A stretch of DNA of 64,000 bases from Lactifluus volemus (Eukaryota; Basidiomycota; Agaricomycetes; Russulales; Russulaceae), in NCBI GenBank assembly GCA_022376515.1, contig WTXI01000019.1, positions 515,057 through 579,056 on the forward strand, given 5' to 3'. The notes under the pieces were generated by a model. The model was not told the DNA's origin and did not search any database. It worked only from the letters and a program-made list of their open reading frames with translations. The position numbers and the translations under genes are program-made. The first letter of the stretch is position 1. Each line of letters begins with the position of its first letter. Positions 12,839 to 54,571 of this stretch are shown in pieces.

Positions 12839-14696
12839 CTGTAAGCGACCGAACATGCGGGTGATTCTAGCAGGATGTTGGCAGGGGGTCACGGAGGTGC
12901 CTCGTTCATTGACAGCCTTATATAAACGAAGCAAAAGAATTTCAATTCAGTTTCAGGAACGCTTTGCTTTGTCGATGGAACGCCTGGACAACCCTGGCGG
13001 TGTATAAGATGGTAGAGTCGGTGTGACGGCGTAAACCCAGTCTGGGGAATGTACTAGTAGTGGCGCTGACAGGAGATAGAGGACCGACTGTCCTTGCTCG
13101 ACCTGTTTTACGATGGCCATGTCGCTGATAGAGACCTCTACTGAACTGAACTTACTCATAACATTGAGTCACACTTGCCAGCGGCAACTCCAGCGGCAAC
13201 TCGACTGGCAACTTCAGAGCTTCAGAGTGTGACATTGCGTGTGTGACACGTGACGCACACTTTGAGTCACAGTTAGGCGTCACAGTTGACCTAACTGCGA
13301 AGTCATCTGCTTCGTATTCAACCTATGTGGGCACGATAATGTCCCTCCTTATTCTTTCAACTCTATTTCTTCTCTCGTCACAAGTGAAATACTAGTCGTA
13401 GCCCACTGCCAGTGGCTATCGATGGTCATAAGGCCCATAATGGCCCGTGAGTCGGAGTGACTCGCATTATGTTGCGGCATATTGCCACATGGCAGTGATC
13501 CCTTCATCTAGCATCAGGAAAACAGTAATGGGACTTGTGCTACTAGTATGGGTTACATGGTCACTTCTAGTGCTGGTGAAGCCAGGGCCGGAGAGGGGTG
13601 TGTGCCGCAGCGTGCGTGGTGACGATATCGGATGAGCGTGGGGAGAGGAGGCTCAATTCGTTCTTCTCATTCAAGTTGACAATGTCCATTGAGTCGTTCA
13701 ACAACGAGCCCTTGGTAAATACTAAGGTATATGGCTACCACTATGCCAGTAATAATGCAAGGAAATGTGAAATGAGATAAAAAGAGTTGAAACGATTGTA
13801 GAATAGGGGTATTATGGTGACAGGATGGTACTGCTGTTTGTAAGTGAAACGGTGAGATAGTAACCTGAGACGGTCTGGGCGATCTCCCCAACTAGGAGCG
13901 ATCGTTATCCAGCCTGAGGTAGCCCCCGTATGCGCGTGACTTCCTATCCGCCCTTCCCTCTGGCAAGTCCTCTCATCCCATCCCTTGATGAATACTAGTA
14001 TATGCTATCTCAGTATCAATTCTCCAGAGTGTTCAAATAGCCACCAAGCCTAAGTGGAAGCAATGACCATTGACCACATGAAGGCCTGATGAACAAGCGG
14101 CATAGATAAGCGTGGAGATCGTGGATAGATCTGTGTGATAAGCAACTTGGGCAATAGCCTGAGGTGAATGCGTCCAAACTACTGGCCTTTATACTGCCCA
14201 ACGAAACGATATAATATGAAACATCTATACTTTATTAATAAATTATATCATAACATATCTATTATCTAGTGTGAGAGATGCATGAGACATTGTCTCTGAT
14301 CATAGGCGTGGGCCGCTTGGCGGGCCGCGTCAGGGTCACGGTCTCAACAGGGCCTACATGTTCTGTGTTTATCTGTGGCACCGTGACGTGCTGGCAGTCT
14401 GAGCAGCACATCGCTGTGAGGCCAGTCAGCGTCAGTTATCGGTCGAATTTCTTCCCAGCTACAGACTACGAAGTGTTCTCAACAATCAATAGGATGTACG
14501 CGCATCCAGACGCTGTATATGTCAAAAAAATCACGACCCTAGGTAGTCAATTCGCCAAAGAAACTAAGTTAGCATGGGAGTGCGTGTACACAGTACAAAA
14601 TCAGTTGACCAGTCAGCGTGACTACCCATCCACCGAAATCGAAAGATGTGATCCAATCAAATCTTACAATAATTCAACACAAGACGAGTGACGATA
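12839..14696. promoter_or_regulatory. R6 upstream / R7 downstream region, duplicated at 18589-20421
   Basis: Long spacer nearly identical to the R8/R9 spacer apart from indels (for example about 80 bp present only at about 13559-13640, and about 90 bp present only at 19518-19610). It contains the upstream block (about 13055-13140), GTGAC-rich DNA, a pyrimidine-rich segment (13340-13380) and the downstream block. Short ORFs here are not conserved in frame between the duplicates, so I call none. Confidence 0.5.
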
Positions 14697-16118
14697 TCAA
14701 ACAGTGGGCAAGCCATGGTATCCCTGTGGCCTTGAAGCTTGCGTGCTGGCCAGGGTGCTTCCAGCGTACATATTAGGTGCTTCGGTAGAGACCTCTGCGG
14801 CGGGGGCGGGAACTATCCCTTGGTACACAGGGAACGTAGCTGGGTCATTTGGGTCCTACGCATATAGAGAAAGAGGGAAAAGATGAGGACATAGGGTCTG
14901 CGACAGTGACGTAGAAACACCTACATAAAGCCTCATCGGTGTGGTAGTAAGCATCGTAGGCAAGGGTGGTGGTATAAATGATCCGTCATCAAGTGGTGGA
15001 GACTGGACTTCTCCCATGAGCGGCTGTGGGGTACCATCGTACACGGTGGCGGCAGCGGGTGGCCCCTGCTGGGCTCTCCGTCGCCTCAAGAATAAAAATA
15101 AGATAAGAGCGGCCGCAGAAACTGCTACCACACCACCGACGACACCCCCAGCGATGGCACCACCGTTAGAAGAAGAGCCTGCGGAACTGGATGGAGAGGA
15201 TGAGGTGGCAGTGTCCGTCGGTTCGGAAGACGAGATGGAAGAGGAAGTAGAGGTCGTGACTGTGGAAGACGGAACGACAGAGGATGTCAATGTCAAAATC
15301 CCGCTGATCGTCTCGCCAATAAGTACTTCAGGAAGATCTGAAAAGGGAAGCGTACTCATTGAAGATGATCGAGTGACAAAGAAAGGAGAGTGTTCCTACC
15401 ACCGACAGTAAGCGATTTACTGGAATTCCAGTTTCCCTCAACCTGGGATATACGGTCAGTATGCAGCAACGACTCGGATGAAAGATGAGTGTCGAACTGT
15501 GATATCAATAAGTGCCCAATTGGGCACGCGTGTTCCCCTAGGAACAGGATAAATGGAAACTGGGAGAATATTCTGTCAGGACAAGGAAACCTCTTACCAC
15601 AGCGATCGACTCACTATGAGACAGGATGATCAGTTGTGCAGTTGATTGCATAATTACCCCAACTAAAAAAAGATAAGCCCAGAAGGCGAGGAGTGGGTGT
15701 GAGACATACGTTATCCACAGATCACCCTGGCACGCATCGCATGAACTCAAGAGGGAATATACAACGCCACTGCACTTGCACGCGTTGTTGGCGCCAGCGA
15801 CAGAGTTAGCGTAGTACGAGGATCCCTGCGGGAGGGCCTGGATGTCATAGGCTGTGCGAGGTGAGGATGGGATGTGGTGCACGAGAAAGATGACTGACTG
15901 CTCCCGTTACAAGTTGACAGTATATAGGCTGCAACTGTACAAGGATTTTGACCGAGCGAGTTGAATGTCTTGGACAAACGATCAGTAAATGATAGGGAAA
16001 CAAATTGGTTCAGCCGCACCCATCCCGACGATGACACGGTGCAAGGGGGAGAGCTGATATCAGCAAGTACATGGGAAGTAAAGAGCGACAAGATCATAAG
16101 TACAGCGGATGTTGACAT
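14697..16118 (-). pseudogene. R7: membrane-protein copy with frameshift in exon 5
   Basis: The start (MSTSAVLMILSLFTSHVLAD, 16118), exons 1-4 and exons 6-8 look normal. In exon 5 the usual TTTCCCTAATCC is TTTCCATTTATCC, one base longer, so the frame runs to a TAG at 15538-15540 after YFHLSCS. The predicted product is a secreted ectodomain lacking stalk and membrane anchor. Downstream exon 7 is still open (SSPSSSAGSSSNGGAIAGGVVGG.., RRRR) and the last exon ends at 14697, so the lesion is recent, or a sequencing error. A CTCGGA 6-bp insertion sits in intron 5 (15473-15478). TATATAAA is at about 16201. Confidence 0.7.
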
Positions 16119-17212
16119 TTGTAAGGGACTAAACGAGCGGGTGATACTAGCAGGACACTGGAAAGGGATGTCGCGGAGGTGATTCGTTCATTGACAGCCT
16201 TATATAAATGCAGCGTAGTAATTCAATTCAGTGACAGGGACGCTTTGCTTTGCCTATGTAACGCCTTAGCACCACTGGCAATGTCAGTTAGTCCATAAGA
16301 TCCTGTGACAGCCTGAGACCGGTCTGGCCCGGGGAACGTACTCGTAGTGGCGCTGTCACCGTCAGTCTCGCTGATTACCAGTACAGGAGATACTACGGGA
16401 CAGACTTCCCTTGCTCGACCTGCTGTACGATGGCGATGTCGCTGATGGAGGTTGAAAATCTCTACTGAACTTGCTCAATTTCGTGTGCCGGTGTGTGACA
16501 TTTCGTGTGTGACATAGTGACACTCATTTGAGTCACGGCTGGGGCTACTAGTACGCGACCTGTCCGAGTCACTGGCATGCAGTACATTACCGCTACATGG
16601 ATTGTTGCTACTCTGTGTTATAAATAACGACTACAATCACTAGATATGCTTGAGCCAAATCAGGTAAAGTATCAAATACTCACTGCATCGTTGGGTAATA
16701 CTGAGGTGAGTGCAGTGTGTCACAACTCGTCGAAAACTACTGCCGTTTATACTGTTCAAACTACATATACGAAACGACATAATATGGAGCATCTATTTTG
16801 TAACTTGTACTGTGACGTGGTGTCCAGTGTGAGAGATGCATATGCCATATTGTCTCTGGCAGCGGCGCATCGGGGTGAGGGTTCTGAGGTCAATCTGTGT
16901 CAGTGATCGGTCGAAACGTTTCCCAGCTACAGACTACGGACTTTCTCAACAATCGATAGAATGTACGCGCAGCTAGACTCTCTGTATATTGTTAAATAAC
17001 CGCGACATGAGGGGATCAATTCGCCCAAGAAAGTAGTTAGCATTGTAGGGCTGTGTACACAATACAGAAAGCTGGAGTTGAGCAGTCAGCGTGACAGCCT
17101 ACCCAAAAGCCTCACCACTGCATACATCCACGACCCGAGAGGCAAATACTAAAAAAGAAAGATGTGGTCCATTGGAATCTTACGGTAATTCAATGCAAGG
17201 CGAGTGACGACA
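16119..17212. promoter_or_regulatory. R7 upstream / R8 downstream region
   Basis: Paralogous to 10185-11432. TATA at about 16201, upstream block at about 16350-16470, then at 16546-16570 two short-insertion octamers (TACTAGTA and TCCGAGTC) that differ from the sister spacer. Downstream block before the R8 stop. No gene seen. Confidence 0.5.
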
Positions 17213-18588: not shown

Positions 18589-20421
18589 TTGTAAGCGACC
18601 AAACATGCGGGCGATTCTAGCGGGACATTGGCAGGGGATCACGGAGGAGTCTCGTTCATTGACAGCCTTATATAAATGCAGCAAAAGAATTTAAATTCAG
18701 TTTCAGGCACGCTTTGCTTTGTCGATGGAACGCCTGGACAACCCTGGCGGTGTATAAGATGGTAGAGTCGGTGTGACGGCGTAAACCCAGTCTGGGGAAT
18801 GTACTAGTAGTGGCGCTGACAGGAGATAGAGGACCGACTGTCCTTGCTCGACCTGTTTTACGATGGCCATGTCGCTGATAGAGATCTCTACTGAACAGAA
18901 CTTACTCATAACATTGAGTCACACTTGCCAGCAGCGGCAACTCCAGCGGCAACTCGACTGGCGACTTTCAGAGTGTGACATTGAGTGTGACAATGTGACG
19001 CTCACTTTGAGTCACAGTTAGGCATCACGGTTGACCTAACTGCGAAGTCATCTGCTTCGTATTGAACCTATGTGGGCAGATAATCTCCTTTCTCTTTCAA
19101 CCCTATTTCTTCTTTCGTCACAAGTGAAATTACTAGTAGTGGCTGCCAGTGGCTATCGATGGCCATAAGGCCCATAACTGCCAGTGACTCGCATTATGTT
19201 GCGTCATATTGCCACATGGCAGTGATCCCTTCATCTAGCATCAGGAAAACAGTAATGGGACTTGTGCTACTAGTATGGGTTACATGGATGAGTGTGGGGA
19301 GAGGAGGCTCAATTCATTCTTCTCATTCAAGTTGACAATGTCCATTGAGCTATTCAACAACGAGCCCTTGGTAAATACTAAGGTATATGGCTACCACTAT
19401 GCCAGTAATAATGCAAGGAAATGTGAAATGAGATAAAAAGAGTTGAAACGATTGTAGAACAAAGGTATTATGGTGACAGGATGGTACTGCCGTCTGTAAG
19501 TGAAACGATGACATAGTAAATGTGAGGCTCTGCCCGCTCGCAACTACGTGGGTAATACTAGCCAAAAAAAGGTGTACTAGTAAGTCCATGAGAAGCACAA
19601 GATAGTAAATAGTAACCTGAGACGGTCTGGGCGATCTCCCCAACTAGGAGCAATCGTTATCCAGCCTGAAGTAGCTCCCCTACGCGCGTGACTTCCAATC
19701 CGCCCTTCCCTCTGGCAAGTCCTCTCATCTCTTGATGAATACTAGTATATGCTATCTCAGTGTTAATTCTCCCGAGTGTTCAAAATAGCTACCAAGCCTG
19801 AGTGGAAACAAAGACCACTGACCACATGAAGGCCTGATAAACATGCAGCATAGATAAGCGCAGAGATCCGAGTCGTGGATAGATCTGTGTGATAAGCAAC
19901 GATTCAGTCGTTGGGCAATAGCCTGAGTTGAATGCGTCAAAAACTACTGGCTTTTATACTGTCCAATGAAACGATATAATATAGCATATCTGTACTTTGA
20001 CTTGTATCGTAACATATCTATGAGAGATGCGCGAGACATCATACTGACGCCGGCACGGGCCGCGTCTCAACAGGGCCTACACCTTCTGTGTTTATCTGTG
20101 GCACCGTGACGCGCTGGCAGCCTGAGCAGCACATCGCTGTGAGGGTATCCGGGCCAGTCAGTGTCAGTTATCTGTCGAATTTCTTCCCAGCTACAGACTA
20201 CGAACTGTTCTCAACAATACGCGCACCCAGACTCGGACGCTCTATATGTCAAAAAAATTGCGACCCTAGGTAGTCAACTTGCCGAAGAAACTAAGTTAGT
20301 ATAGGAGTATTACACAGTACAAAATAAGTTGACCAGTCAGCGTGACTACCCATCCACCGAAATCGAAAGATGTGATCCAATCAAATCTTACAATAATTCA
20401 ACACAAGACGAGTAGACGATA
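18589..20421. promoter_or_regulatory. R8 upstream / R9 downstream region
   Basis: Duplicate of 12839-14696. It includes three clear 6-bp insertions relative to that spacer or to 38771-40458: TGCCAGTG (19179-19186), TCCGAGTC (19867-19874) and GACTCGGA (20230-20237). TATA at about 18669 and upstream block at about 18805-18890. No gene seen. Confidence 0.5.
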
Positions 20422-21831
20422 TCAAACAGTGGGAAAGCCGTGGTATCCCTGTGGCCTTGAAGCTTGCGTGCTGGCCAGGGTGCTTCCAGTGTACATATTG
20501 GGTACTTCGGTATAGACCCCTGCTGCGGGGGCGGGAATTGTACCTTGGTACCCAGGGAAAGTAGTTGGGTCATTCGGGTCCTATGCATATAGAGAAAACA
20601 GGGAAAATATGAGCACATAGCCTCTGCGACAGAGACATGAAATCGCGCACGTAAAGCTTGATCGGTGTGGTAGGCGTGATAGGCAAGGATGGCGGCACAA
20701 ATGCTCCGTCATCAGGTGGTGAAGACTGGACTTGCCCCATGACCGGCTGTGGGGTACCACCGTACACAGCGGCAGTGTGCTGCCCCAGCTGGGGTCTTCT
20801 TCGCCACAAGAAGAAAAATATGATAAGAGCGGCCGCAGAGACTGCTACAAGACCACCGGCGACACCCCCTGCGATAGCACCGACTTTAGAAGAGCCTCCG
20901 GTACTGGACGGAGAGGATGAGGTGGAAGTGACCGTAGATGAGGTGGGAGAGAAAGTAGAGGCCGTGACTGTTGAAGATGGAACGACAGAGGATGTCGACA
21001 TCCAAGTCCCGCGGTTGATCATCGCCCCAGGAGGTACTTCAGGAAGATCTGAAAAGGGGAGCGTACTACTTGAATATGGCTGAGTGACGGAGAAAGGAGT
21101 GCTCCTACCACCGACAACATACGATTGACTGGGATCCCAGATGCCCTCAATCTGGGATATACGGTCTGTACTAGTATGCAGCAATGACGAGAGATACTAG
21201 TAAGTGACGAACTGTGATATCAATGAGCGCCCAATTGGGCACGCGTATTCCAGCAGGAACAGGATTAGGGAAACTGAGAGAATATTCTCTGTCAGGACCA
21301 GGAAACCTCTCGTGACAACGATCGACTCACGACGCAGCAGGCACATTTCCACGTGTGCAGTTTTCCGAGAAATATGCCCAACTAAAAAGAGATAGGCCCA
21401 GAAGGCACAGGGTGGGTTTGAGACATACGTTGACAACGGATCTCCCTGGCACTCTTGGCATGCACTAAGGAGGGAAAATAGGACTGTGCTGCACCAGCAC
21501 GTGGCGGTGTGAGTGCTAGGACCAGCGTACGTGTCTCCCTGTGGAAGGGGCTGGAGTGTAAACGCTGTGCGAGGTGAAGATGGGATGTGGTGGACGAGAA
21601 GGATAACTGACTGCCCCCGTAACAAGTTGACCATAAATATGCTGCGACTTCACACGGACTTTGACCAATCGAGTTGAATGTCTAGGACAAACGATCAGTA
21701 AATGATAGGGAAACAAATTGGTTTGGCCGCACCCATCCCAATGACGACACGGTGCAACCGGGATAGTAGATCTGAGCAAGTACATGGGCAGAAAAGAGTG
21801 ACAAGATTGTAAATACAGCCGATGTTGACAT
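20422..21831 (-). CDS. R9: Cys-rich single-pass membrane protein
   Basis: Intact copy; start MSTSAVFTILSLFSAHVLAQ at 21831, YYPGCTVSSLGW, CWCSTVLFSLLSACQECQG. The second Cys cluster is CQEC rather than CDAC. The stalk is somewhat shorter (TFSPTSSTVTSTSSSPSSTGGSSK), followed by VGAIAGGVAGGLVAVSAAALIIFFFLW and RRR. The final exon ends RPQGYHGFPTV at 20422. Intron 5 carries two TACTAGTA insertions (21169-21176 and 21195-21202) only about 25 bp apart, which leave the splice signals intact. The TATA-like TTATAAATAA is at about 21911. Confidence 0.8.
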
Positions 21832-22665
21832 TTGTAAGCGACCAAACATGCGGGTGATTCTAGCAGGATGTTGGCAGGGGGTCACGGAGGTGTCTCGTTC
21901 ATTGACAGCCTTATAAATAAATGCAGCCACAGAATTTCAATTCAGTTTCAGGAACGCTTTGCTTTGTCGATGGAACGCCTGGACAACCTTGGCGGTGTCA
22001 ATTTGCCCATAAGATCGTATGAGTCGGTGTGACGGCGTAAACCCAGTCTGGGGAATGTACTAGTAGTGGCGCTGACAGGAGATAGGACCGACTGTCCTTG
22101 CTCGACCTGTTTTACGATGGCCATGTCGCTGATAGAGATCTCTACTGCCAGTGAAGTGAACTTACTCATGTCACACTTGCCAGCGGCAAGTCGACTGGCA
22201 ACTTCAGACTCAATGAGAAATGATTTAATGTAAATTAATACCAATTGACTTAAGGAAACTGGTAACAGTTGATCAGGATTACTTTGATTCAAGCGGATTG
22301 ATATCGGCTAATAGGATTTGAATATCATTCAATCCCTATTCAATCACCCGACCCATGCACGTGTCTGCAGCCCTCAACCCTGTGACCCTGTACGTCCTAA
22401 ATTGTTAACGCAGCTCTTGGCGCTGCTATTCCACTTCCGAGTCGGCAAGCACGTACCACCTGCGACGTGCTATCCTCCCAGCCAAACAATATTACTAACC
22501 ACTACTCATTCGCTGGACCTCTCTGATAGAGATTGGTGGCCGTTCCCTAGGCTCAAAGAGAGAAAAAGGAATTGAAAGTCGCCACAAGGAATTTTTTATT
22601 CAACAAGGACCAGGTAGGATTCATCTGGAGCCAGTGGAATGATTGCTGAGTTGAATCACGCAGGG
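21832..22665. promoter_or_regulatory. R9 upstream region, ending at an array break
   Basis: Normal R9 upstream sequence (TATA about 21911, upstream block about 22060-22160, a TGCCAGTG insertion at 22146-22153). Up to about 22345 it matches the R10 upstream region (35510-35650), including ATTTGAATATCATTCAATC. There the two diverge: here into sequence preceding the F-box remnant, at R10 into the bZIP fragment. That marks a duplication breakpoint. Confidence 0.5.
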
Positions 22666-23898: not shown

Positions 23899-23903
23899 CA
23901 CTC

Positions 23904-24757: not shown

Positions 24758-25600
24758 CTATCCGGGGCCCATCCTCATGTTCTCGTCGTCCCAGCCATGG
24801 ATCTGAGTCGTGTCCACTATATATGTTGGGGCGAAGTCTTCCGGGGTCACATATGGTATGGTGGGCGGTGGAGATTCTGCCATAGGTAGATGGGAGGTCT
24901 GGGCAGTAGTGTCTATCTCATTTTCGCGCGATGCGAGTTGTGAGCGTCGTGCCTCCCGGGATCGTTCGATGATTGGGTTGTAGTTGCCCGGAGCGTCTAC
25001 ATGGACTGATCTGAGGGCCAGTGCAGGCCTGTCTGTAATACGCTTGCGGGCCAGATTCCTGGCTTGTTTCAGAATCGGCGTGTGTGTGCCGTCGGGGTGA
25101 GTTGTCAGTGTCATTTCGATGTATGCAGTGGCCCAAGGGCGCCACTGCTCCGCCTCATCGGGGGTAACTCCACTCTGTGCCAGGTATTTGGCTATGTCTT
25201 CAATATCTGGGTTGAGCGCATTTTTAAATTGTTTCTCATTGTACGGGTCGGAGCGACGGGTCTTGTAGATAGACAATTGTTTTTCAGTTATCAATTGTTC
25301 ATATCGTTGTGGCACCCCCAGCAGTGCTGCGGCTGAGCTCATGAAGTTGGTCCGGAGTGGACCATTGCGGATGGCGGTCCCCTTGATATTCAGGGGTAGG
25401 CAGGCCAGGAGTGCGCGGTTGCCATCGACGTGGGCGGTCTGGAATCCCTTTCCAACTAAGGGGACACCTATATATTGGAAGTGCATATCTGCGGTATGCT
25501 TTTCGCGTAGCCACCGCTTCCAAATCGTGGGGTGTGTGGCTGGTGTGGGTTCCGGACGATCAGAGGGGATAGTGTCTATCTGCAAAGCAGTCCAATGATC
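24758..25600 (-). CDS. 3' ORF of the gypsy element, function unknown, 5' end lost in deletion
   Basis: Open frame of about 275 codons following the deletion junction, in a different frame from reverse transcriptase. It begins in a Trp-rich stretch (WRTLDHWTALQIDTIPSD) and contains WKRWLREKHTADMHF, ALLGVPQRYEQLI, TPDEAEQWRPWATAYIEM and an acidic C-terminus ending MRMGPG. I see no RNase H, integrase zinc finger, DDE or chromodomain signature. Its position is where a C-terminal pol extension or an extra ORF would lie. I do not recognise it; it could be the C-terminal domain of pol in intact relatives. Confidence 0.5.
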   Translation of the reverse strand, partial: DHWTALQIDTIPSDRPEPTPATHPTIWKRWLREKHTADMHFQYIGVPLVGKGFQTAHVDGNRALLACLPLNIKGTAIRNGPLRTNFMSSAAALLGVPQRYEQLITEKQLSIYKTRRSDPYNEKQFKNALNPDIEDIAKYLAQSGVTPDEAEQWRPWATAYIEMTLTTHPDGTHTPILKQARNLARKRITDRPALALRSVHVDAPGNYNPIIERSREARRSQLASRENEIDTTAQTSHLPMAESPPPTIPYVTPEDFAPTYIVDTTQIHGWDDENMRMGPG

Positions 25601-32990: not shown

Positions 32991-33732
32991 AGTGCATGAA
33001 TGAGGCGACCATCGGTGTGACCCTGATGGGTCACACAGATGTGTAAAACATACTCGTTAAGGCCACCGCATATGTTTTTTTTTTGCGCGGAACGAACAGG
33101 AAAGGCAGGCTACTGTATCGTCATAAAAAAGGACAGAAGGAGCGTGAGAAGTTTATCCGGAGGCCAAGAAAGGAAAACGATGATGTAAGTTGATTACCAA
33201 CACTCTTCAGCGGGCGTGATTGAGGTGAACGCATCAAAAACTACTGGCTTTTATACTATCCAACGAAACGATATAATATGAAACATCTATACTTTTTTAA
33301 CTTGTATCGTAACATATCTATTATCTAGTGTGAGAGATGCATGAGAGTCTCTGATCATACTCATGCGTGGGCCGCGGCTCAACAGGGCCTGCATTTCTGT
33401 GTTTATCTGTGGCACCGTGACGTGCTGGCAGCCTGAGCAGCACATCGCTGTGAAGGCATCCAGGTCAGTCAATGTCAGTCAACAGTCAATTTCTTCCCAG
33501 CTACAGACTACGAACTGTTCCCAACAATCAATAGGATGTACGCCGCACCCAGACGCTGAATATTCCAAATAACCGCAACCCTGAGGTAGTCAATTCGCCG
33601 AAGAAACTAAGTTAGTATGGGAGTATGTGTACACAGTACAAAATCAGTTGACCAGTCAGCCCTATCCACCGAAAACGAAAGATGTGATCCAATCAAATCC
33701 TACAACGATTCATCATAAGACGAGTGATGATA
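32991..33732. promoter_or_regulatory. Spacer downstream of R10
   Basis: T9 run (about 33076), a short AG-rich stretch, then from about 33215 the shared downstream block including AGCCTGAG (33429-33436). Parallel to 36620-37383 in the next duplicated unit. No gene seen. Confidence 0.45.
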
Positions 33733-36619: not shown

Positions 36620-37383
36620 ATGGGTCACGCCGATGGTGTGAAGCAAAGAACATATAGAGACTTAAGTTCACAATGACTCATGGAGGAAAAACATTCCAGA
36701 GTGACAGTAACACATCACAAAACATACTCGTTAAGGCCACTGCATCTGTTTTTTTTGTGTGGAACGAACAGGAAAGGCAGGCTATCGTCATGAAAAAAAG
36801 ACAGAAGGAGCATTTGGAGGCCAAGAAAGGAATAACGATGATGTTACCAACACCTCATCAGCGGGCGTGATTACAGCCGCATGAGGTGAATGCTACTGGC
36901 TTTCATACTGTCCAACGAAACGAAAATAATATGAAAACACCTATACTTTTTCAACTTGTATCGTAACAAATCTATGATCTGGTGTGAGAGATGCATGAGA
37001 CATTGTCTCTGATCATACTGACGCGCGGGCCGCGTCTCAACAGGGCCTACATGTTCTGTGGCACCGTGACGTGCTGGCAGCCTGAGCAGCACATCGCTGT
37101 GAGGGTATCCAGGCCAGTCAGCGTCAGTAAACGGTCGAATTTCTTCCCAGCTACAAATTACGAACTGTTCTCAACAATCAATAGGATGTACGCGCACCCA
37201 GACGCTGAATATTCCAAATAACCACGACCCTCAGTAGTAGTCAATTCGCCGAAGAAACTAAGTTAGTATGGGAATATGTGTACACAGTACAAAATCAGTT
37301 GACCAGTCAGCCCTATCCACCGAAAACGAAAGATGTGACCCAATCAAATCTTACAACGATTCGTCACAAGACGAGTGACGATA
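36620..37383. promoter_or_regulatory. Spacer downstream of R11
   Basis: Counterpart of 32991-33732: T8 run (about 36749), then the shared downstream block from about 36870, including AGCCTGAG (about 37079-37086). No gene seen. Confidence 0.45.
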
Positions 37384-38770: not shown

Positions 38771-40458
38771 TTGTAAGCGACCAAACATGCGGGCGATGCT
38801 AGCAGGTCATCAGCAAGGGGTGTCACGGAGGTGTTCCGTTCATTGATAGCTTTATATAAATGCAGCAAAAGAATTTGAATTCTGTTTCAGGCACGCTTAA
38901 CTTTGTCGATGGAACTCCTGGACACCACTAGCATTGTCAGATTGCCCATGAGTCGGTGTGACGGCGTAAACCCAGTCTGGGGGAATGTCCTAGTAGTGGC
39001 GCTGACAGGAGATACAGGACCGACTGTCGTTGCTCGACCTATTTTACGATGGCCATGTCGCTGATAGAGATCTCTACTGAACTGAACTTACTCATAACAT
39101 TGAGTCAAACTTGCCAGCGGCAACTCCAGCGACACTTCGACTGGGGTTCAACTTCATTGTTGTGACATCGCATGTGTGACACATGTGATGCTCAGTTTGA
39201 GTCACGGCTAAGCGTCACGGTTGACCTAACCGCGAAGCCATGGCGTAGCACCGGATCCTTATATAGCGAATCCCCATCTGCTTCTGTGTGGGCAGGATAA
39301 TGTCCCTCCTTTCTCTTTCAACTGTATGTCTTCTCTCATCACAAGTGAATTACTAGTAGAAGCCCACTGCCAGTGGCTATCAATGGCAATAACTGACTCG
39401 TATTATGTTGCATATTGCCACGTGATCCTTTCGTCTAGCATCAGGAAAACGATATGGGAGTTCTGAGGTTATGTAGTCACCTCTAGTGACCGAGTTTGTG
39501 ACCTAGACTCTGCAGAATTGCCCAAGCCAGTATAGGCAATTCTGGCCCTTCTTATGACTCGGATTTGGATGGCAGAACCTATGGCCAGGATAATGCTGGT
39601 GTGTGCGTGGTGGCGATGCCAGAAGAGTGTTGGGAGGGGAGGCTCGGTTTGTTCGCTCATTCAAGTTGACAATGTCCATTAAGCTATTCAACAACGAGCC
39701 CTTGGTAAATAATAAGTTGTATAGCTACCGTTGTGCCAGTAATAAGGCAAAGAAATGTGAAACGAATAAAATGATTTTGAAACGATTGTAAAACAAAGGT
39801 ATTATGGCGACGGGATGGTACTGCCGTCGCAAGGCCAGGTGCGGGCACGTTCTGTCTGTAAGTGAAACAATGACACAGTAAACGCTTCAGGTAAAGTATC
39901 ACTTACGCATATACTACAAGTTAGGCAATAGACTGAGGTGAATGCGTCGAGGACTACTGGCTTTTATACTGTCCAAACTACGTTGTTGAAACGACATAAT
40001 ATGAAACATCTGTTCTACAACTTGTGTCATAACATATATATTTTGAGAGATGCATAAGACCTATTGTCTCCGATCATACTGATGCGCAGGCTGCGTCTCA
40101 ACAGGCCCACATGTTCTGTATTTAGCTGTGGCACCGTGACGTGCTGGAAGCAGCACACTGGCATCGCCGTGAGGGGTTTGAGGCGGCCACTTAGTGTCAG
40201 TTATCGGTTGAACTTCTTCCCAGCTCCAGACTATGAACAGTTCTCAACAATCAATGGGATGTATGCGCACCCAAACTCCTTGTATATGCTACATAACCGC
40301 GACCCTGAGGTAATCAATGCGCCCAAGAAAGTAACTTAGCATGGGGGTATGTGTACAGTACAAAATCAGTTGAGTTGACCAGTCAACGTGACTGCCTACC
40401 CACCGAAAACGGAAGGTGTGATCCAATCAAATCTTACAATAATTCAATACAAGACATA
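38771..40458. promoter_or_regulatory. R11 upstream / R12 downstream region
   Basis: TATA about 38852, upstream block about 38985-39075, GTGAC-rich DNA, then a segment homologous to the R6/R7 and R8/R9 spacers (39290-39790) and the downstream block, which carries a CACTGGCA insertion (40156-40163). No gene seen. Confidence 0.5.
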
Positions 40459-41895: not shown

Positions 41896-42564
41896 TTGTA
41901 AGGGACCAAACGTCACGGTGCGGGTGATGTTAACAGGACAGTAGCAAGGGGTATGATGGAGGTGATTCGTTCATTGACAGGCTTATATAAATGCAGGAAA
42001 AGTATTACAGGCACACTTTGCTTTGTCGATGGAACGCCTGAACGCCACTGTCAATGTCAGTTTGCCCATAGGATCTGGTGATATCCTAATCCCTGTCTGG
42101 GGAATGTGGCAATGTGCTGATAGTGGCGCTCATTACTAGTCCCATTACAGCCTTTACAGGAGATAGACTCGGAGGACCGACTGCCCTTGCTCGACCTATC
42201 TGAGATGGTAATGTCACTGAGCATGGAGGTTGAAGATCTCAACTGAACTTACTCTTAGCATTGAGTCACACGCATGGCAGCTCAACCGACCAAGCAAACT
42301 CGCGTTTGTGTGTGACATGGAGTGTATGACAGAATGTGACACTCGCGTTTGTGTGACCCAAGATAGGCTTGAGCCAAATCAGGAAGTAAAGTATCACATA
42401 AACAATGTTCACACGGGCGACTCGAATTTTGGGCAGGGCTGAATCGGCTGATTTATACTGTCCAAACTAAATAGATGAAACGACATAATATGAGACATCA
42501 AGTTGATGTCGTCCCAAATGAAAAGAGTGTGGTAAGGAAAAGTGGTAAAGAATAGCGAGAGAGC
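41896..42564. promoter_or_regulatory. R12 upstream region, left of the MITE
   Basis: Carries a GTCACGGT insertion (41912-41919), TATA (about 41983), the upstream block (about 42118-42245) with a GACTCGGA insertion (42166-42173), and GTGAC-rich DNA up to about 42360. No gene seen. Confidence 0.5.
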
Positions 42565-45133: not shown

Positions 45134-46310
45134 TTGTAAGGGACCAAACGTGCGGGTGATGCTAGCAGGGCACTGGTAAGGGTGTCACAGAGCTGATTCG
45201 TTCATTGGCGGCCTTATATGAAGAATTTCAATTAAGTTACAGGCACGCTTTGCTTTGTCGATGGAATGCCTGGACCACTGGCAATGTCAGTTTGCCCACA
45301 AGATCTGCCAGTGGTGACAGCCTAAGCCCAGTCTGGGGATGTACTAATAGTGGCGCTGATTACCAGTACAGGAGATAGAGGACCAACTCCTATTTTACCA
45401 CGGTCATATCGCTGATGGAAGTTGAGGATCTCTACTGAACTTACTCTTGGCCTTGAGTCACACTTGCCAGTGGCCGTCTCAACCGAGGCTTCAACTTCGC
45501 GTGCGAGAATCGTGTCACAGTACGTGACATGATGTGACATATTGACATCTGTGATGTGACATCACTGAACATCGCACGTCATCATTGTTATCACCCTGTA
45601 CAAGTACTTAAACAGAATAGTTTGGGGTGTAATTCTCTTCTCCCTTACTATCACGCCGTGATCATGTCACAGTTCCGATTCGATTATGACACTCACTCGA
45701 GTTACTGGTAGGTGTGATAAGTGACGGCCCGTACAGATAAGCTATACTACCTGGGCAAATAGACTGAGGTCACGGCGAATGCATCGAAAAGTGCTGGCAT
45801 ATGAAACACCTATTCTATAACTTGCATCATAACATGACGTATAGTGTGAGAGATGCATAAGGGATATTGTCTCCGATCATACTGACGTGCGGGCCGCATC
45901 TCAACAAGGCCTACATGTTTGGTGTTTATCTGTGGCACCGTGATGTGCTGGCAGCAGCGCATCACCGTGAGGGTTCTCGGGCCACGCAGCGTCAGTGAGT
46001 TATCCGTCGAGATTCTTCCCAGCTACAGAGTACAGACTGTTCAAGTTCTCAGCAATCAATAGGATGTACGCGCACCCAGACTCTCTGTATATAGTTACAT
46101 AACCGCGACCTGAGGGTGCGAAAGAATGTAAGTTAACGTAGGGGTATGTATACACAATACAGAAGGGTTGAATTGAGTAGTCAGCGTGAATGCCTAACGA
46201 AACGCCCCGCATACATCCACGACCCGAGAGGCAAAGATCGAAAACGAAAGATGTGACCCAATCAAATCTTACAATAATTCAACACAAGGCGCCGAGCGCC
46301 AGTGACGATA
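45134..46310. promoter_or_regulatory. R13 upstream / R14 downstream region
   Basis: Upstream block about 45340-45450, preceded by a TGCCAGTG insertion (45306-45313). GTGAC/TGACAT-rich DNA (45500-45580). The downstream block includes TTCAAGTT (46040-46047). No gene seen. Confidence 0.5.
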
Positions 46311-47713
46311 TCAAACAGTGGGCAAGCCATGGTATCCCAGTGGCCTTGAAACTTGCGTGGTGGCAAGGGTGCTTCCAGTGTACATACTGGGTACTTCGGT
46401 ATAGACCTCTGGGGCGGGATCTGTGCCTTGGTACCCAGGGGATGTAGTTGGGTCATTCAGGTGCTATTCATTTAGAGAAAATAGGGAGAATATGAGGACA
46501 TAGGTCTGCGACAAAGACATAGAAACGCGCAGGTAAAGCCCGATCGGTGTGGTAGGCGTCGTAGGCGGCATATATGTTCCGTCATCGGGTGGTGGAGACT
46601 GGACTTGTCTCATGAGCGGCTGTGGGGTACCACCGTACACGGCAGCGATGGGCGGCGCCTGCTGAGCTGTTCTTCGCCTCAAAAGAAAAATAATATAAGA
46701 GCGGCTGCAGAGACTGCTACAAGACCACCGGCGACACCCCCTCCAATGGCACCCACGTTTGAAGAAGAGCCTGCGGAACTGGACGGACTCGGAGAGGATG
46801 AGGTGGCAGTGTCCGTCGGTTCGGAAGAGGAGATGGAAGAGGAAGTAGAGGTCGTGGCTGTGGAAGATGGAATTACAGACGATGTCGATGTCGAAGTCCC
46901 GTTGATCAGAGCGCCAGGAAGTACTTCAGGAAGATCTGAAAAGGGGAGCATACTAATTGAATATGACTGAGCGACGGAGAAAGGAGAGCGTTCATACCAC
47001 CGACAGCATACGATTGAGTGGAATCCCAGGTGCCCTCAACCTGGGATATATGGTCAGTAGCAGCGACGATGGTAGATAAGTGACGAACTGTGATATCAAT
47101 AAGCGCCCATTGGGGCACGCGAATTCCAGCAGGAACGGGAACAGGGAAACTGAGAGACCATCTCTGTCAGGGCCAGGAAAATTTTTACCCCAAATTTCGA
47201 CTCACGATGAGGCAGGCTGTCCAGCTGTGCAATTACCCGAAAAATCTTTCCAACTAAAAAGAGATAAGCCCAGAAGGCGAAGGGTGGGTTTAAGACGTAC
47301 TTGAACCATGGGTCTCCCTGGCACGCGTCGCATGCACTCAAGAGGGAATACACAATAGTGCTGCACTTGCACAAGGTGCTGTCGCCATAGGCAGGACCAT
47401 TGTACGCTCGTCCCTGCGGGAGGGCAGGTATGTGAAACTCTGTGCGAGGTGAGGATATTGCCAGTGATGCGATGCGCGAGAAAGATGACTGACCGCCCCC
47501 GTAACAAATTGACTGTAAAAACGCTGCGACTTCACACGGATTTTGACCAAGCGAGTTGTATGTCTTGGACAAACGATCAGTAAATAATTGAGAAACAAAA
47601 TGGTTCAGCCGCACCCAATTCAAGGACGACACGGTGCAATCGGGCCAAGTGACGTCAGCAAGTACATGGACAGAAAAGAGTGTCAAGATCGTAAGTACAG
47701 CAGACGTTAACAT
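46311..47713 (-). pseudogene. R14: membrane-protein copy with frameshift at the end of the TM helix
   Basis: Start MLTSAVLTILTLFSVHVLAD at 47713; TWPDCTVSSLNW, CKCSTIVYSLLSACDACQG and RVPQWALIDIT are intact, as are the stalk and helix (VGAIGGGVAGGLVAVSAAAL). A one-base deletion in the FFLLRRR codons changes them to FFF-stop (TGA at 46679-46681), so the product ends inside the membrane without the Arg stop-transfer or tail. The intron 7 donor is also lost (CTGCGC instead of GTGCGC, about 46533). Two independent lesions argue against a simple sequencing error. A CTCGGA insertion (46788-46793) adds two codons to the stalk. TATATAAA at about 47796. Confidence 0.75.
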
Positions 47714-48197: not shown

Positions 48198-48338
48198 TAT
48201 TGCGGATACATCCGAGATTACGTCACTTAGACCTTAGTTTAGTATAAGTAGTCGGGGTCATGATCCGAATGAGCAATCTAATCTTTTCCCCCTTAATCTC
48301 ACTCTGTCACCATCTCGGGTCACGCTCTTAGCCTAAAA
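48198..48338 (+). repeat. 5' LTR of copia A
   Basis: 141 bp, TATTGCGG .. CCTAAAA, identical by eye to 53857-53997 and about 80% similar to the copia B LTRs. It lacks the usual TG..CA ends, but the boundary is fixed by the GATAA duplication and by the adjacent primer site. Confidence 0.9.
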
Positions 48339-48352
48339 GGTTATGGGCCCTG
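48339..48352 (+). other. Primer-binding site of copia A
   Basis: GGTTATGGGCCCTG directly follows the LTR. It is complementary to the anticodon arm of eukaryotic initiator-Met tRNA (..GGGCCCAUAACC..), the half-tRNA priming mode known for Drosophila copia and yeast Ty5. Confidence 0.75.
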
Positions 48353-48506
48353 GTGCCTACTGCTGAATTCTTCTCTCCTTCTCATTCCTTCCTATCCTTC
48401 GCGACTGTCACCCTACCATATTAACTTATTCATTTGACAAACATAACGCATACACATGCATACATATACCTAATACCCATTCTTCACTACATAAGATCAA
48501 CGCAAT

Positions 48507-49724
48507 ATGTCCAATCCCTCATCTGCACCCGGTTCTGGTTCTGGAGCAGCCGGAGCGACCGCGCCGACGGGTACTGCCAATCCCTCTGGAACTGTCTCTG
48601 CATCTACCTCCACTGCTTCCGTCACCTCTTCTGGGACAACATCCTCATCCTCCACTTCCTCACATGTTATGCCATCCTTCTCTGCCAATGATATTCCCCT
48701 TACCGAACGCTATATCTCAGACCATTCCTGGCCGTCGACACTCGTCTTAGACCTTCGATCCTCGAACTGGTCCGAGTGGAGTCATCGCCTCGAAACTCTC
48801 GCTAGCAGGACGGGACTTGACCCCTGGTTGAATGGGTCCCTTTCACCACCCGACCCTAATCTCAAAATCGCCAACAGTTGGGTTTGGTGGACAAACAATA
48901 ACTCGCTACGCGGATTCATTATTCAGCACATCTCGACTTATGACTTCGACCTGATTTCCTCCCTCAAACTTGCCCACGACATATACAACGTATTACGCAA
49001 CCGACACGAGAAGCTCAGCCTCCACGCACACGTCATCTTCAACAAGAAACTCTCCAAGACGCACTTTCGTCGCTCCATTCCACTTACCCAAACACTTCAG
49101 GTCATCAAAGCCCTCCATCAATCCATTGTCAACCTCGGTCCCTATGACGCTGATCGCATGTTGTGCACTTACATTCTTTATTCCTTAGGATTAGAATTTC
49201 GTGAGCTTCAATCCACAATACGAACAATGACGCTCGACCCGAACTGCACCTCCGCCACCATTATACACCGCCTCGAATCCGAAGAAGACCTCATTCAACG
49301 TCGCGGCGATCAGGGACTGGAGGCCTACACTGATGCCTCGTCCACCGCCCTCGTCGCTCGTTCCAATACAAACCCTCAAAACCAAAACTCACGGGATCGC
49401 CCACCGCGACCCACCTGTTCCAATTGCAGGCACGTCGGTCACACGATCGATTTTTGCATCCAACCGGGTGGGAAGATGGCCGGTCGCACCGTTGAAGAAG
49501 CTCGAGCCGCTCAGGCTGCCGCACGTCCTCGTACCCAGAAAACATCTCAAACACATTCCGCCAACGTCGCTACTACCGTCGCCTCTTCCTCACCCTCATC
49601 GTCTACCTCGACCCCCTCCACAGTTACTGTCAATGGGGTTACTTACTCATCGCACCTGTCACCTCGTCGTCCACTGCGTCGTCCGCAGCTCCCGCTACCA
49701 CGTCTGCCCGTATTGAGGAGGTGA
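48507..49724 (+). CDS. Gag of copia A
   Basis: ATG at 48507, MSNPSSAPGSGSGAAGATAP. After a Ser/Thr-rich leader comes the copia Gag core (IPLTERYISD, LDLRSSNWSEWSHRLETLA, NSWVWWTNNNSLRGFI, QSIVNLGPYDADRMLCTYIL). A CCHC knuckle CSNCRHVGHTIDFC follows at about residue 307, then PGGKMAGRTVEEARAAQ. From GVTYS (about 49650) the frame shifts relative to copia B and reads an artefactual Pro/Arg-rich tail to a stop at 49722. In copia B the same frame continues into protease. Gag forms the particle and binds element RNA. Confidence 0.85.
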   Translation: MSNPSSAPGSGSGAAGATAPTGTANPSGTVSASTSTASVTSSGTTSSSSTSSHVMPSFSANDIPLTERYISDHSWPSTLVLDLRSSNWSEWSHRLETLASRTGLDPWLNGSLSPPDPNLKIANSWVWWTNNNSLRGFIIQHISTYDFDLISSLKLAHDIYNVLRNRHEKLSLHAHVIFNKKLSKTHFRRSIPLTQTLQVIKALHQSIVNLGPYDADRMLCTYILYSLGLEFRELQSTIRTMTLDPNCTSATIIHRLESEEDLIQRRGDQGLEAYTDASSTALVARSNTNPQNQNSRDRPPRPTCSNCRHVGHTIDFCIQPGGKMAGRTVEEARAAQAAARPRTQKTSQTHSANVATTVASSSPSSSTSTPSTVTVNGVTYSSHLSPRRPLRRPQLPLPRLPVLRR

Positions 49725-52700
49725 CTCTCGATTCTGGTGACAATTGGGAAGCGCTCGTTGCTTTGGATGATGATGACGACGTGAACTCTTTGCTTGTTCG
49801 ACCTAACGGGTCTTCCCCTGTTTCTGCCTTCACAGCCTCTACGGCTGATGTCGTCTCTTACCCTTTCCTTCTTGATACTGGGGCCACGTGCCATATCTCC
49901 CCGGTGCGCTCTGACTTTTCCTCTTTCATCTCAATTCCTCCCTGCCCGATTAAGGGGCTCGGAGGCGCATGCGTTTATGCAGTCGGCATGGGTTCGATTA
50001 ACATCCCCGTTGCCCCTGGACGTGTCCTCACTCTTCGTGATGCTCTTTTCATCCCTTCTAGCGCGTTCGTCTGATTTCCGTGCTGACGCTTTGCCGTCAT
50101 AACAGCCTGACGTGCCATTTTAACTCCGACTCGTGTTGGCTCACAGACGTGCGGGGCTCCACCGTTGCACACGGTGCTGTCGTTGCCCCCCGTCTTCTTT
50201 ATTCACTTTCTCTTGTGCCTGAACTTTCTGATCACTCTGCATTCCCTTCTATTTACCACCTACTCCTGATATTGAGACCTGGCATGTCGCCTCGGTCATT
50301 GCAACCTTCGCACTCTCATTGACATGGCGCGCGCTGGGGTGGTGAGCGGATGCGTATTGACCTCTCGTCCTTACCCCCAAATGCAATGCGTGTATTCTTG
50401 GCAAACAGACCAAAACACCTGTCCCCAAAGTTCGGGAGGGAAACCGGTCCACAGTTCGTTTACATAAAGTTTACGTTGACCTCAGCGGTCCTTACTCTGT
50501 TGCATCCCGTTCTGGTCATAAATATTGTATGAACATCATTGATGATTTCTCCTCTTTCGCCTGGTGTATCCCGATTGCCGCTAAGGATGATGCGCTTACG
50601 GCGCTTCAAGTTTGGCACCGCTCTGTTGAGAAACAGTCTGGAGCCCAGTTAAAAATGTTTCTCACTGATAACGGAGAACTTATTTCCAACGCTTGCCGTG
50701 CCTGGTGCGATGCTCACGGCATTGTTCACCAACGCACTGGCCCATATACATCCATCCAGAATGGACGTGTGGAACGCCTGCATCGCACGCTTTTACATAA
50801 AGCCCGCACCATGCGGATCGCTTGCGATGCTCCACTCGACTTATGGCACGAGTTCTGCCTCACTGCCGCTTACCTCACAAATCGTACGGCCTCTGACACC
50901 CTTGGTGGCCGCACCCCCCATGAACTATGGTTCGGCAAAAAACCCTCCCTCTCCCACCTCCGCGAAATCGGTTGTTCTGCCTACTCCCTTCTTCACAAAC
51001 ACCCCAAAGTCTTCGCTCGTTCGATTTCCGCGATCCTCATTGGCTACGCCCTCAATTCCCGTTCATACCGCCTCTGGGATCGTGAAACCGACCGTGTGTT
51101 CGACTCGTGCCACGTTGTCTTCGTTGAACATCTCGACTCAAAACCCCGCGTTTTTCGTCCTGGCCAAATTATACCGGCCATCCCTTCCTCAAACTCTTCT
51201 TCTTCTTCTACTTCTGCCCAGACTCCGCTGCACCCACCTCTACCCATACCTACCCAAATCACGACAGAATTACCACCACTTCCACCGATGTCGCTCCAAC
51301 CGCCTGCTCAACCAGTCTTTCACCCTCAACATAATTTCTCTTTATTTCCTCCTGTTTTTCCGTATCCTAATCCATACAATCCTTTTTACGTTCCTTCAAC
51401 TCCATATATGCCTATCATACCAAGTGCGCCTGCTGGCCACAACCCTTCGGCCCACGTGCCTATTTCTCCATCCTCCTCTCTTACTTCTTCTGCCCAGAAT
51501 TTGCCTTCTATTTCTTCCTTAGCCTCTGTTCATTCTTCCACTGTTATTCCACCCAATACTGTACATATTCCTTCTACAAATACTTTCTCACAACCACAAA
51601 CGATACCATCATCTCATCAAGCATCGTCATCACTTCAAGTTTCACCAGCACCTCAAGATATGATTTCACCACCTCAAGCTACGTTTTCACCACCTCACGT
51701 TACATTTTCACCACCGCAAGATTCGTTTTCACCACCGCAAGATCCGTTTTCACCACCGCAAGATACAATTTCACCACCTCAAGAACCACTTTCACCGCTT
51801 CAAGATTCTTTATCGCCTCCTCAAGATTCTCCGTCTCCACTTCGTGACTCCCGTACTGTAGCTTCTTCTTCTTCGAACCGTACTGAACTTTTACCTACTG
51901 TTTCTGCTACTATACCTTCTCCTTCACCTCCCACCCCTCCCGCTCCTAGACGATCCTCCCGCATTGCCGACCGTCTCCGTTCGCATGCCCCTGCACTGCT
52001 TGCCGAGTTCGCCCCACTACGAGACTCTCACACCCTCATTCCTCTCGTCTCCGACCCCTCTCTTCCATCCGTTGACACTGTCCTGCAAGCCCTTACCTCC
52101 GGTTCTGCCACCCCAGTCCTATCCGACAACGATGACCCTTCATGGTCAGAAGCGCTCAGTTCACCAGAGCGCGAATACTGGATTGCTGGCGGCCGTGATG
52201 AGCTTAAATCGCTCGAGGACCTGAACGTGTTCGTACTTGTACCCCGCTCCGCAGTCCCACGCGGTCAGCGTGTCCTGAAAGGGAAGCTCGTCTGCAAACG
52301 TAAACGCGACGATGCTGGCAATATCACACGGTACAAAGTTCGTTACGTCGCCAAGGGCTACGCTCAACAACACGGCATCGACTACGACAAAGTCACTGCG
52401 CCGACTGCTCGCCTCAAATCATTCCACGTTCTCCTTCATCTCGCTGCGTCTCTTGACTGGGATGTTCAGCAATTTGATGTGAAAACTGCATTTTTACATG
52501 GAATTCTCCCTGACTCAGAGACCATGTTCCTCGAGCAGCCGCCTGGCTTTGAAGCTGAGGGTAAAGAAGGCTATGTCATGAGACTCATGAAGAGTATCTA
52601 TGGCATGAGGCAAGCAAGCCGTGTGTGGAACACAACGTTCAACGCTGCGGTGGAAGAATGGGGATTCACGCGACTTCCCTGTGAGTGGTGCGTGTACAAA

Positions 52701-53743
52701 CGCACCTCTTCTTCTGGGACCATCCTCTTCGCCGTCCATGTTGATGACATCGTCGCCGTCGCGTCTTCCCCTGAGGAAAACTCCCGTTTCCACACCCTCC
52801 TCCGCACCAAATGGGAGATCTCCGCGCTTGGTCCGGCAAAATTCGCTCTCGGCATCTCGATGACACGCCACCGACCGTCTCGCAGCATCGCGTTGTCACA
52901 GACGCTGATGATTGATCGCGTCGTGGAGAAATTTGGTCAAAACGATGCCCATCACGCCGAAACTCCGATGGCCGCTGGAGTCGTCTTGGAACAACCTGAC
53001 AAGTCGATTCCGATTCCGCCTACAGTCGCCGATTGGATAGCGCGCACTCCCTACCGCGAACTTGTCGGGTCGTTGATGTATATCGCCATCGCCATGCGCC
53101 CCGATATCGCCTACGCGGTCAGCCATTGTCCACCTTTTTGGACTGTTACCGTCCGGAGCACTGGGGGGCAGCCATTAGAGTACTACGTTACCTGAAAGGT
53201 ACTCGTTCTCTATCATTAGTACTCGGCGGCAACACTCCTCCCTGTCTTGGTGGATTCTCGGATTCCGATTATGCCAGCTGCATGACCACCAGTCGGTCGA
53301 TCTCCGGCTATTGTTACAACCTTGGCTCTGGTGTCGTGTCCTGGAGTTCGCGCAAACAACGTACCGTAGCAGATTCATCTTGCTATGCCGAGTACATCGC
53401 CCTTCATGATGCTTCGCATGAAGCCATCTTTCTAAGGCAACTTCTCGAAGGCCTTGGTTTCGTCCCGTCTAAGCCCACTCCCATTCATTGCGATAACCAC
53501 GCGGCGTCCATCATTGCCGAAGACCATGTTTGGCATTCGCGCATCAAACACATTCGCGTCAAGTATCATCACATACGCGATTTGGTCGCCCGCAAAGATA
53601 TTACCGTTGTTCGCGTCCGTTCCAGTGAGAACGCGGCCGACATTATGACGAAACCACTAGCCAAGAATGACTTTTGTCGTCTTAGAGAGTTGTTGGGATT
53701 GCGCGTTGTTGGTGTTGGGAGTGAGGAGGAGCACCCCTCCTAG
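49650..53743 (+). pseudogene. Pol of copia A (protease-integrase-RT-RNase H), frameshifted
   Basis: Protease: FLLDTGATCHISP (about 49870). The pre-integrase zinc-binding region is broken by single-base losses (about 50067 and 50285). Integrase: MNIIDDFSSFAWCIP (50529), LTDNGELISNACRAWCDAHG, TSIQNGRVERLHRTLL. Then a long Pro/Ser linker with SPPQ heptads, reverse transcriptase (WDVQQFDVKTAFLHG, KSIYGMRQASRVWN, FAVHVDDIVAVASS) and, after another one-base loss (about 53126), RNase H (VSWSSRKQRTVADSSCYAEY, HCDNHAASIIAEDHVWHSR, NAADIMTKPLA) ending EEEHPS at 53743. All domains are present; only the frame is broken. Confidence 0.88.
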
Positions 53744-53844
53744 GGGATTCCTTTCCTTTCTTCTTTCCTCTTTTTGCTCCTTTTGTTTTCGTGGACTCTA
53801 ACTTCATAACAGACTTGTACTATACATAAAAAGAGGTCATATGC

Positions 53845-53856
53845 GACGAGGAGGAG
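53845..53856 (+). other. Polypurine tract of copia A
   Basis: CGAGGAGGAG stretch directly before the 3' LTR; the same bases precede the copia B 3' LTR. Confidence 0.7.
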
Positions 53857-53997
53857 TATTGCGGATACATCCGAGATTACGTCACTTAGACCTTAGTTTA
53901 GTATAAGTAGTCGGGGTCATGATCCGAATGAGCAATCTAATCTTTTCCCCCTTAATCTCACTCTGTCACCATCTCGGGTCACGCTCTTAGCCTAAAA
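53857..53997 (+). repeat. 3' LTR of copia A
   Basis: 141 bp, identical by eye to the 5' LTR; followed by GATAA (53998-54002). Confidence 0.9.
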
Positions 53998-54571
53998 GAT
54001 AAGTAATACTCATTTCATCGTTGGGCAATCAGTCAATGCATCGAAAAATATTGGCTTTTAGACTGTCCAAACTACATAGATGAAACTATATAATATGAAT
54101 CAACTATTCTATAACGTCAAGTCGTATCATAATATGATATCTACCGACTCGTGGGCCGCGTCTCCGAGTCAACAAGGCCATGTTTAATGTTTATCTGTGG
54201 CACCGTGACGTGCTGGCAGCAGCGCATCACCGTGAGATTTCTCAGGCCAGTCGGTGTCAGTGAGTTATCCGTCGAGATTCTTCCCAGCTACAGAGTACAG
54301 ACTGTTCCCAACGATCAATAGGATGTATCCGCAGCCAGACTCTCTGTATATGGTTAAATAACCGCGACCCTGAGTGGGTCAATTCGTCAAAGGAAGTAAG
54401 TTAGTAAGTTAGCATAGAGGTATGTGTACACAGTACAGAAAGATAGAGTTGAGCAGTCAGCGTGACAGCCTACCCAAAAGCCACACCACTGCATACATCC
54501 ACGACCCGAGAGGCAGCGAAAGATGTAATTCAATCAAATCTTACAATAATTCAACACAAGACGAGTGACGA
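53998..54571. promoter_or_regulatory. Spacer downstream of R15
   Basis: Resumes array sequence after copia A. Shared downstream block with a TCCGAGTC insertion (54163-54170) and ACCGTGAC (54202-54209), up to the R15 stop. No gene seen. Confidence 0.45.

Follow-up and report, generated by a model that had tools for sequence, protein, structure and literature searches.

What process turns a dinucleotide XY into the octamer XY-C-rc(XY)-G-XY, where rc denotes the reverse complement? The question is raised by a 64-kilobase (kb) stretch of the Lactifluus volemus genome (contig WTXI01000019.1, positions 515,057 to 579,056; hereafter the window), for which a preliminary description had reported 6-base-pair (bp) insertions of this form at unrelated sites. 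Here we confirm that the octamer pattern is real and find it in excess beyond the window. With modest confidence we lean towards the reading that the octamers mark places from which PlavakaB-type DNA transposons of the cut-and-paste kind, or their presumed short derivatives, were excised; release would proceed through hairpins on the flanking DNA.

The octamer exceeds its controls in the window and genome-wide

All 16 octamers listed in the preliminary description were found in place and conform to the rule. Its impression that such octamers are unusually common in the window was likewise borne out: 93 octamers with the spacer pair C/G were counted against 16.0 expected under a first-order model, GACTCGGA and TCCGAGTC together contributing 16 and TACTAGTA 18. 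Replacing C/G by each of the 15 remaining spacer pairs gave between 11 and 34 occurrences.

Sixteen further loci beyond the window (L009–L024; 156,519 bases), chosen by coordinate without regard to content, contained 153 octamers where 39.8 were expected, the other pairs yielding 35 to 74. One of these loci (L022) adjoins the window, another (L014) alone supplies 39 of the 153, and several, among them L011–L013, L015 and L021, had counts near background. The first 10 kb of L014 (L014:1-10000) were the densest stretch encountered: the 39 octamers belong to many dinucleotide classes and lie mostly outside detected tandem repeats, and the G/C control was also high there (12).

At the scale of the full assembly (62.4 Mb in 628 contigs) we tallied one class, GACTCGGA, which occurred 11,065 times (5548 and 5517 on the two strands). 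Its mirror, the same letters read backwards and hence a near-miss of the type XY-G-rc-C-XY, occurred 2,337 times (1167 and 1170), giving a 4.7-fold excess. If the other classes behave like GACTCGGA, extrapolation gives tens of thousands of octamers beyond chance genome-wide.

For tests of the form itself we pooled the sequences at hand (289–298 kb), a set that includes loci fetched for holding GACTCGGA (L001–L008) and loci chosen for Plavaka, and in which L001 and L002 lie inside L009 and L007 overlaps L008. The 2-bp C/G form was found 372 times in ∼298 kb, whereas the other spacer pairs averaged 93.1 and peaked at 138. Removal of exact repeats in a 32-bp context left 323 octamers against 92 for the control. 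The excess was not restricted to TA, as the CA, GA, AA, AC, AG and CC dinucleotide classes also surpassed their controls. Sequence preference around the octamers was weak, and a preference for C at position −1 was shared by the control.

Changing the length of XY to 1, 3, 4 or 5 bp abolished the enrichment of the C/G form in the same ∼298 kb; the 3-bp version occurred 8 times against a mean of 7.3, and among the 3-bp controls the G/C pair reached 21. Fillers of 0, 1 or 3–8 bases between C and G were not clearly enriched in the pooled set either. Octamers with one altered filler base were mildly over-represented (316 and 266 against about 240), which is consistent with the decay of old scars. 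Four of the 372 octamers were directly doubled into 14-mers of the form XY-C-rc-G-XY-C-rc-G-XY (L014:538, L014:3296, L023:584 and L025:320), through either slippage or a repeat visit to one site.

Six-base differences between paralogues

The octamers had been described as 6-bp insertions relative to paralogues. We regarded such a gap as recovered when, in at least one paralogue and without a flank filter, a 6-bp gap started no more than 3 bases from the octamer start. This was the case for 14 of the 16 sites, those at 16546 and 19179 being the exceptions. The sites, in window coordinates and with no strand assigned, are:

15471..15478, GACTCGGA octamer; 6-bp gap against paralogues
20230..20237, GACTCGGA octamer; 6-bp gap against a paralogue
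42166..42173, GACTCGGA octamer; 6-bp gap against paralogues
46786..46793, GACTCGGA octamer; 6-bp gap against paralogues
19867..19874, TCCGAGTC octamer; 6-bp gap against paralogues
54163..54170, TCCGAGTC octamer; 6-bp gap against paralogues
21169..21176, TACTAGTA octamer; 6-bp gap against a paralogue
21195..21202, TACTAGTA octamer; 6-bp gap, seen too in a paralogue pair at least 86% alike
16546..16553, TACTAGTA octamer; no gap recovered on alignment
45306..45313, TGCCAGTG octamer; 6-bp gap against paralogues
22146..22153, TGCCAGTG octamer; 6-bp gap, seen too in paralogue pairs at least 86% alike
19179..19186, TGCCAGTG octamer; no gap recovered on alignment
40156..40163, CACTGGCA octamer; 6-bp gap against paralogues
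46040..46047, TTCAAGTT octamer; 6-bp gap against paralogues
20119..20126, AGCCTGAG octamer; 6-bp gap against paralogues
41912..41919, GTCACGGT octamer; 6-bp gap against paralogues
10991..10998, TGCCAGTG octamer; 6-bp gap, absent from the earlier list
11051..11058, CCCGGGCC octamer; 6-bp gap, absent from the earlier list
33430..33437, AGCCTGAG octamer; 6-bp gap, local context as at 20119
37079..37086, AGCCTGAG octamer; 6-bp gap, local context as at 20119

Paralogous alignments of the window and L001–L024 contained 18, 64 and 24 distinct insertion/deletion (indel) sites of 5, 6 and 7 bp, and a C/G octamer lay within 3 bp of the gap at 1, 17 and 2 of these, respectively. Among the 6-bp gaps every other spacer pair was found at three sites at most, and a random position in the window has a C/G octamer in 1.0% of cases. 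The association of 6-bp indels with the octamer held for 17 of the 64 sites and failed for the other 47. Indel events of 8, 9 and 10 bp (38, 55 and 41) in these paralogues also exceeded those of 5 and 7 bp (20 and 24).

Coincidence, whether through selected examples or base composition, would sit comfortably with the 47 unfitting sites and with the fact that the earlier examples were picked by eye. It does not sit with 17 of 64 6-bp indels against a background of 1.0%, nor with the 4.7-fold genome-wide excess of one class over its mirror. The genome-wide, coordinate-chosen-locus, window and indel counts rule out chance or composition, and we consider coincidence extremely improbable.

Three comparisons outside the window provided five 6-bp indels, two of which fit the octamer (in L050 and at L014:80). 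The first lies in a repeat of ∼900 bp with 20 aligned copies. Nineteen copies carry a single CT (18 read CTTCTAGG and one CTTCTTGG), and the L050 copy reads CTT-CTCAGG-CTAGG, that is, CT-C-AG-G-CT, the sole 6-bp minority insertion of the set. Because 19 of 20 copies have the single CT, the 6 bp were gained in L050 and the single XY is the older state; this is the one case in which polarity could be read. At L014:80, TTCAAGTT stands opposite TT in a paralogue that is 86% alike. L024 and L033/L034, whose contigs are 97–98% alike and are possibly allelic contigs kept in the assembly, differ by several insertions, including one of 98 bp with an 8-bp duplication and one of 592 bp with ends read as TA-type.

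PlavakaB-type elements have C and G ends and mostly 2-bp duplications

The Plavaka transposase domain PF18759 has at least 168 matches in the genome (best E 3.5e-119), and matches fall within element copies at C595, C220 and C146. Two full element copies measure 6,261 and 6,259 bp and are 99.3% alike; a third, 6,261 bp by coordinates, was read at both ends (99.1–99.8%). All three start with CATCAGGAAA and finish with TTTCCTGATG, giving termini of CATCA..TGATG with C as first and G as last base, and their target duplications are AA, GT and AA. PlavakaB is described as making 2- or 3-bp duplications and having CATCA..TGATG termini, and is grouped with EnSpm, Transib and RAG1 (Kojima 2025, PMC12730594).

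The element end TTTTCCTGATG occurs 762 times in the genome, its mirror control 34 times. Among the first 100 places listed, many form facing pairs ∼172 bp, 1.6 kb, 4 kb or 6–7 kb apart, presumably full elements and short derivatives. Twenty facing pairs, hand-picked from these 100 places, were read; an exact 2-bp duplication was present in 14, a 3-bp duplication in 1 and none in 5, so that 17 of 23 sites overall have the exact 2-bp form.

To find unoccupied relatives of 22 filled sites, the flanks joined via one copy of the duplication were sought genome-wide and the 40 best candidates scored per search. Relatives of exactly the unoccupied length were listed for 11 sites; at two others the length differed by one base and at one by four bases, and the remaining 8 had no listed relative among those candidates. 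The unoccupied relatives were read out at two sites, C146 (seven paralogues) and C16 (one). At C146 all seven have TTTAAC in the place of TTTAA-element-AAC in the filled copy. The C16 element (L091/L092 compared with L095) apparently carries an additional AC that separates its right end from the TC duplication expected there, and this AC is absent from the empty relative.

At L087/L088 a PlavakaB-type insertion has a CG duplication, immediately after which comes the octamer TCCGAGTC. In the window, left-end matches to CATCAGGAAA at 6144, 13512, 19239 and 39439 have no recognisable right end with matching duplication and are possible decayed PlavakaB remnants. An insertion at C132 (L035) was considered as a filled site of the 20-copy repeat and was not counted; only one of its ends abuts the repeat, and the dinucleotide after the likely other end is TC, as against AA.

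Possible sources of the octamers

The fixed scar bases C and G match the first and last bases of the PlavakaB-type element, and C/G is the pair that stands out among the 2-bp forms. We infer that PlavakaB-type elements are the likely makers of the scars. The preliminary description had suggested a transposon excision footprint with a 2-bp duplication and terminal C and G; an abundant group with these features is present, and an explanation of the footprint kind is supported.

Several observations weigh against the assignment to PlavakaB. Of the 22 filled sites searched, 14 had a relative spanning the junction among the candidates scored; none of these relatives was 6 bp longer, and no site combined an element in one copy with a scar in another. 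L057, L077, C595 and C220 each had one listed relative, of empty or nearly empty length. The dinucleotide spectra also differ: the 762 ends of the CATCAGGAAAA elements are preceded by AA in 88 cases and GA in 26 (mirror controls 4 and 5), and the background-subtracted scar excess is 38 for AA/TT and 45 for GA/TC (AA versus GA, odds ratio 4.7, p = 1.4e-6, using background-subtracted counts). Scars outnumber exact element ends, with an excess of 8,728 in one octamer class compared with ∼381 elements, variant ends being uncounted. To these are added, of the 20 element pairs, the five without a duplication and the one with 3 bp. The 20-copy repeat shows just one scar difference, and two loci 97–98% alike (C200/C445, ∼7.7 kb) show none, their three 6-bp gaps all failing to fit. 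The dinucleotide mismatch could be explained, as a conjecture, if older relatives made most scars or if G/C-containing dinucleotides join or anneal better.

The same mismatch can be read as the mark of a different cut-and-paste element, perhaps extinct or more diverged, that had 2-bp duplications and terminal C and G and was joined in the same way. Scars are concentrated in diverged DNA such as L014 and the array of the window and drop to about the background level in several loci that bear genes, in keeping with this. Among 160 terminal-inverted-repeat candidates in the DNA analysed, however, nine had a 2-bp border repeat, as expected by chance, although this was a weak test (50–2600 bp, 13 of 16 end bases) that is blind to full PlavakaB; one of the nine starts with C (window 49648-50712). 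The remaining insertions between copies, in the 20-copy repeat and the 97–98% pair, have 8-bp, 9-bp or TA-type junctions. We regard another element as unlikely, though it is the alternative we take most seriously.

Mutation without any transposon, for instance templated insertion during break repair, is a further candidate source of such 6-bp insertions. End joining in general is known to give inverted templated inserts, and the failure to find a filled and scarred pair at one site would be unsurprising if no element had been involved. Break repair nevertheless offers no evident source for a C and a G that stay constant over many dinucleotides, a pattern that the 15 other spacer pairs do not share, and we judge it to have little chance of being correct.

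A proposed hairpin route to a single product

Returning to excision of PlavakaB-type elements, we propose a route by which the scar might arise. At each end, the transposase would cut a single strand just past the terminal C, 1 nucleotide (nt) into the element. Attack of the resulting 3′ end on the opposite strand, at the boundary of element and target, would close each flank into a hairpin, XY-C-rc(XY), whose loop is 1 nt long. If this hairpin were opened at least 2 nt into the flank, a 3′ tail ending in ...XY-C-rc(XY) would be produced, and the opposite flank would yield the counterpart of rc(XY)-G-XY. Both tails could then anneal through the 2-nt rc(XY), and trimming and filling would generate XY-C-rc(XY)-G-XY.

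Because both flanks carry the identical XY duplication, the two tails would always share rc(XY), whatever XY is. Such a route would explain why the middle is inverted, why C and G are fixed, why the rule is its own complement and why there is a single product. The inverted middle dinucleotide, which the preliminary description had left unexplained, would on this proposal result from hairpin-capped flanks rejoining through the duplication.

Products keeping two or three terminal element bases numbered 12 and 0 in the ∼298 kb. Other products, expected from blunt hairpin joining or from longer or shorter additions, were tried as well and were not clearly enriched.

The sequence fixes only the outcome, and the same elements might have used another chemistry, such as fold-back synthesis from a 3′ overhang in place of a transposase-made hairpin; fold-back priming could also invert XY beside C. 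The lack of clear enrichment of longer or one-sided products speaks against this, as annealing of two tails predicts a single product, and we think fold-back or similar chemistry improbable.

Tentatively, and at a little short of even confidence, we suggest that a whole transposon group leaves one invariant, self-templated scar, formed when flank hairpins offset by 1 nt are opened and rejoin via the inverted copy of the 2-bp duplication, and that tens of thousands have been written in one genome as a readable log of jumps. If so, past excisions would be countable from sequence alone, and the scar would point to a specific end-joining chemistry in a RAG1-related transposase group. At 6 bp, it would also preserve reading frames.

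Other content of the window

Much of the window (1-22300 and 33000-56000) is a broken tandem array of ∼13 diverged units, which are 60–95% alike by block and mostly start 2.3–3.6 kb apart. Two Copia-type retroelements occupy 48507-53195 and 56754-62030; for 58977-62030 of the second there are six further genome copies at 98–100% identity, one of them partial. The region 24758-30575 contains a 1352-amino-acid open reading frame (ORF) with aspartyl protease, Ty3-capsid-like and zinc-knuckle matches, and a reverse transcriptase ORF on the minus strand. A search of the PDB with one ORF gave no match, and neither did a search for 5.8S rRNA. In our reading of their ORFs, the genes of L011, L013 and L014 resemble those of a mushroom-forming basidiomycete.

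Comparison with known systems

Neither the footprint rule nor any Plavaka footprint was described in the titles and abstract beginnings of the open-licence literature searched. In the text consulted, papers on CACTA elements of lettuce and soybean (PMC8195511, PMC2613891) do not use the word footprint. For Marasmius oreades, the part of the source consulted reports a deletion at one Plavaka copy that was not an excision (PMC9674265). PlavakaB belongs to the CMCT clade (CACTA/EnSpm-Mirage-Chapaev-Transib), and its 2-bp duplications, CATCA..TGATG termini and Plavaka domain are all present in this genome (PMC12730594). The main text of that paper gives no excision product: it lacks the word footprint and mentions excision solely in base excision repair. 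The scar dinucleotides found here differ from those at present element ends.

Transib forms hairpins on its flanking ends. Plavaka is grouped with Transib and RAG1 (PMC12730594); Transib and RAG differ in their 5-bp duplications, and the portion of the source consulted describes no hairpin with a 1-nt offset and a retained element base (PMC2803484). The same source states flanking-end hairpins for hAT elements and V(D)J recombination. At Ac/Ds excision junctions inverted copies of flank bases occur, and the footprints derive from the flank rather than the element (PMC4561436). The inverted middle rc(XY) of our 372 octamers resembles these junctions, but here the presumed element C and G are retained, with a 2-bp duplication and a uniform product. 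What cut-and-paste transposons leave on excision generally varies: of 94 putative excisions in rice, 8 were clean, and deletions or filler marked the others (PMC4423477).

Tc1/mariner elements have TA as their target. In Tc1/mariner and Stowaway short pieces of the element end remain with the duplication (PMC4561436). Their extra bases come from the element, whereas the middle of the octamer repeats the duplication in reverse complement. For mPing/Harbinger the target duplication provides the microhomology for rejoining (PMC4561436), as it would in the proposed route. There, however, the site is restored scar-free, whereas here the ends would pair through the inverted copy and leave 6 bp behind.

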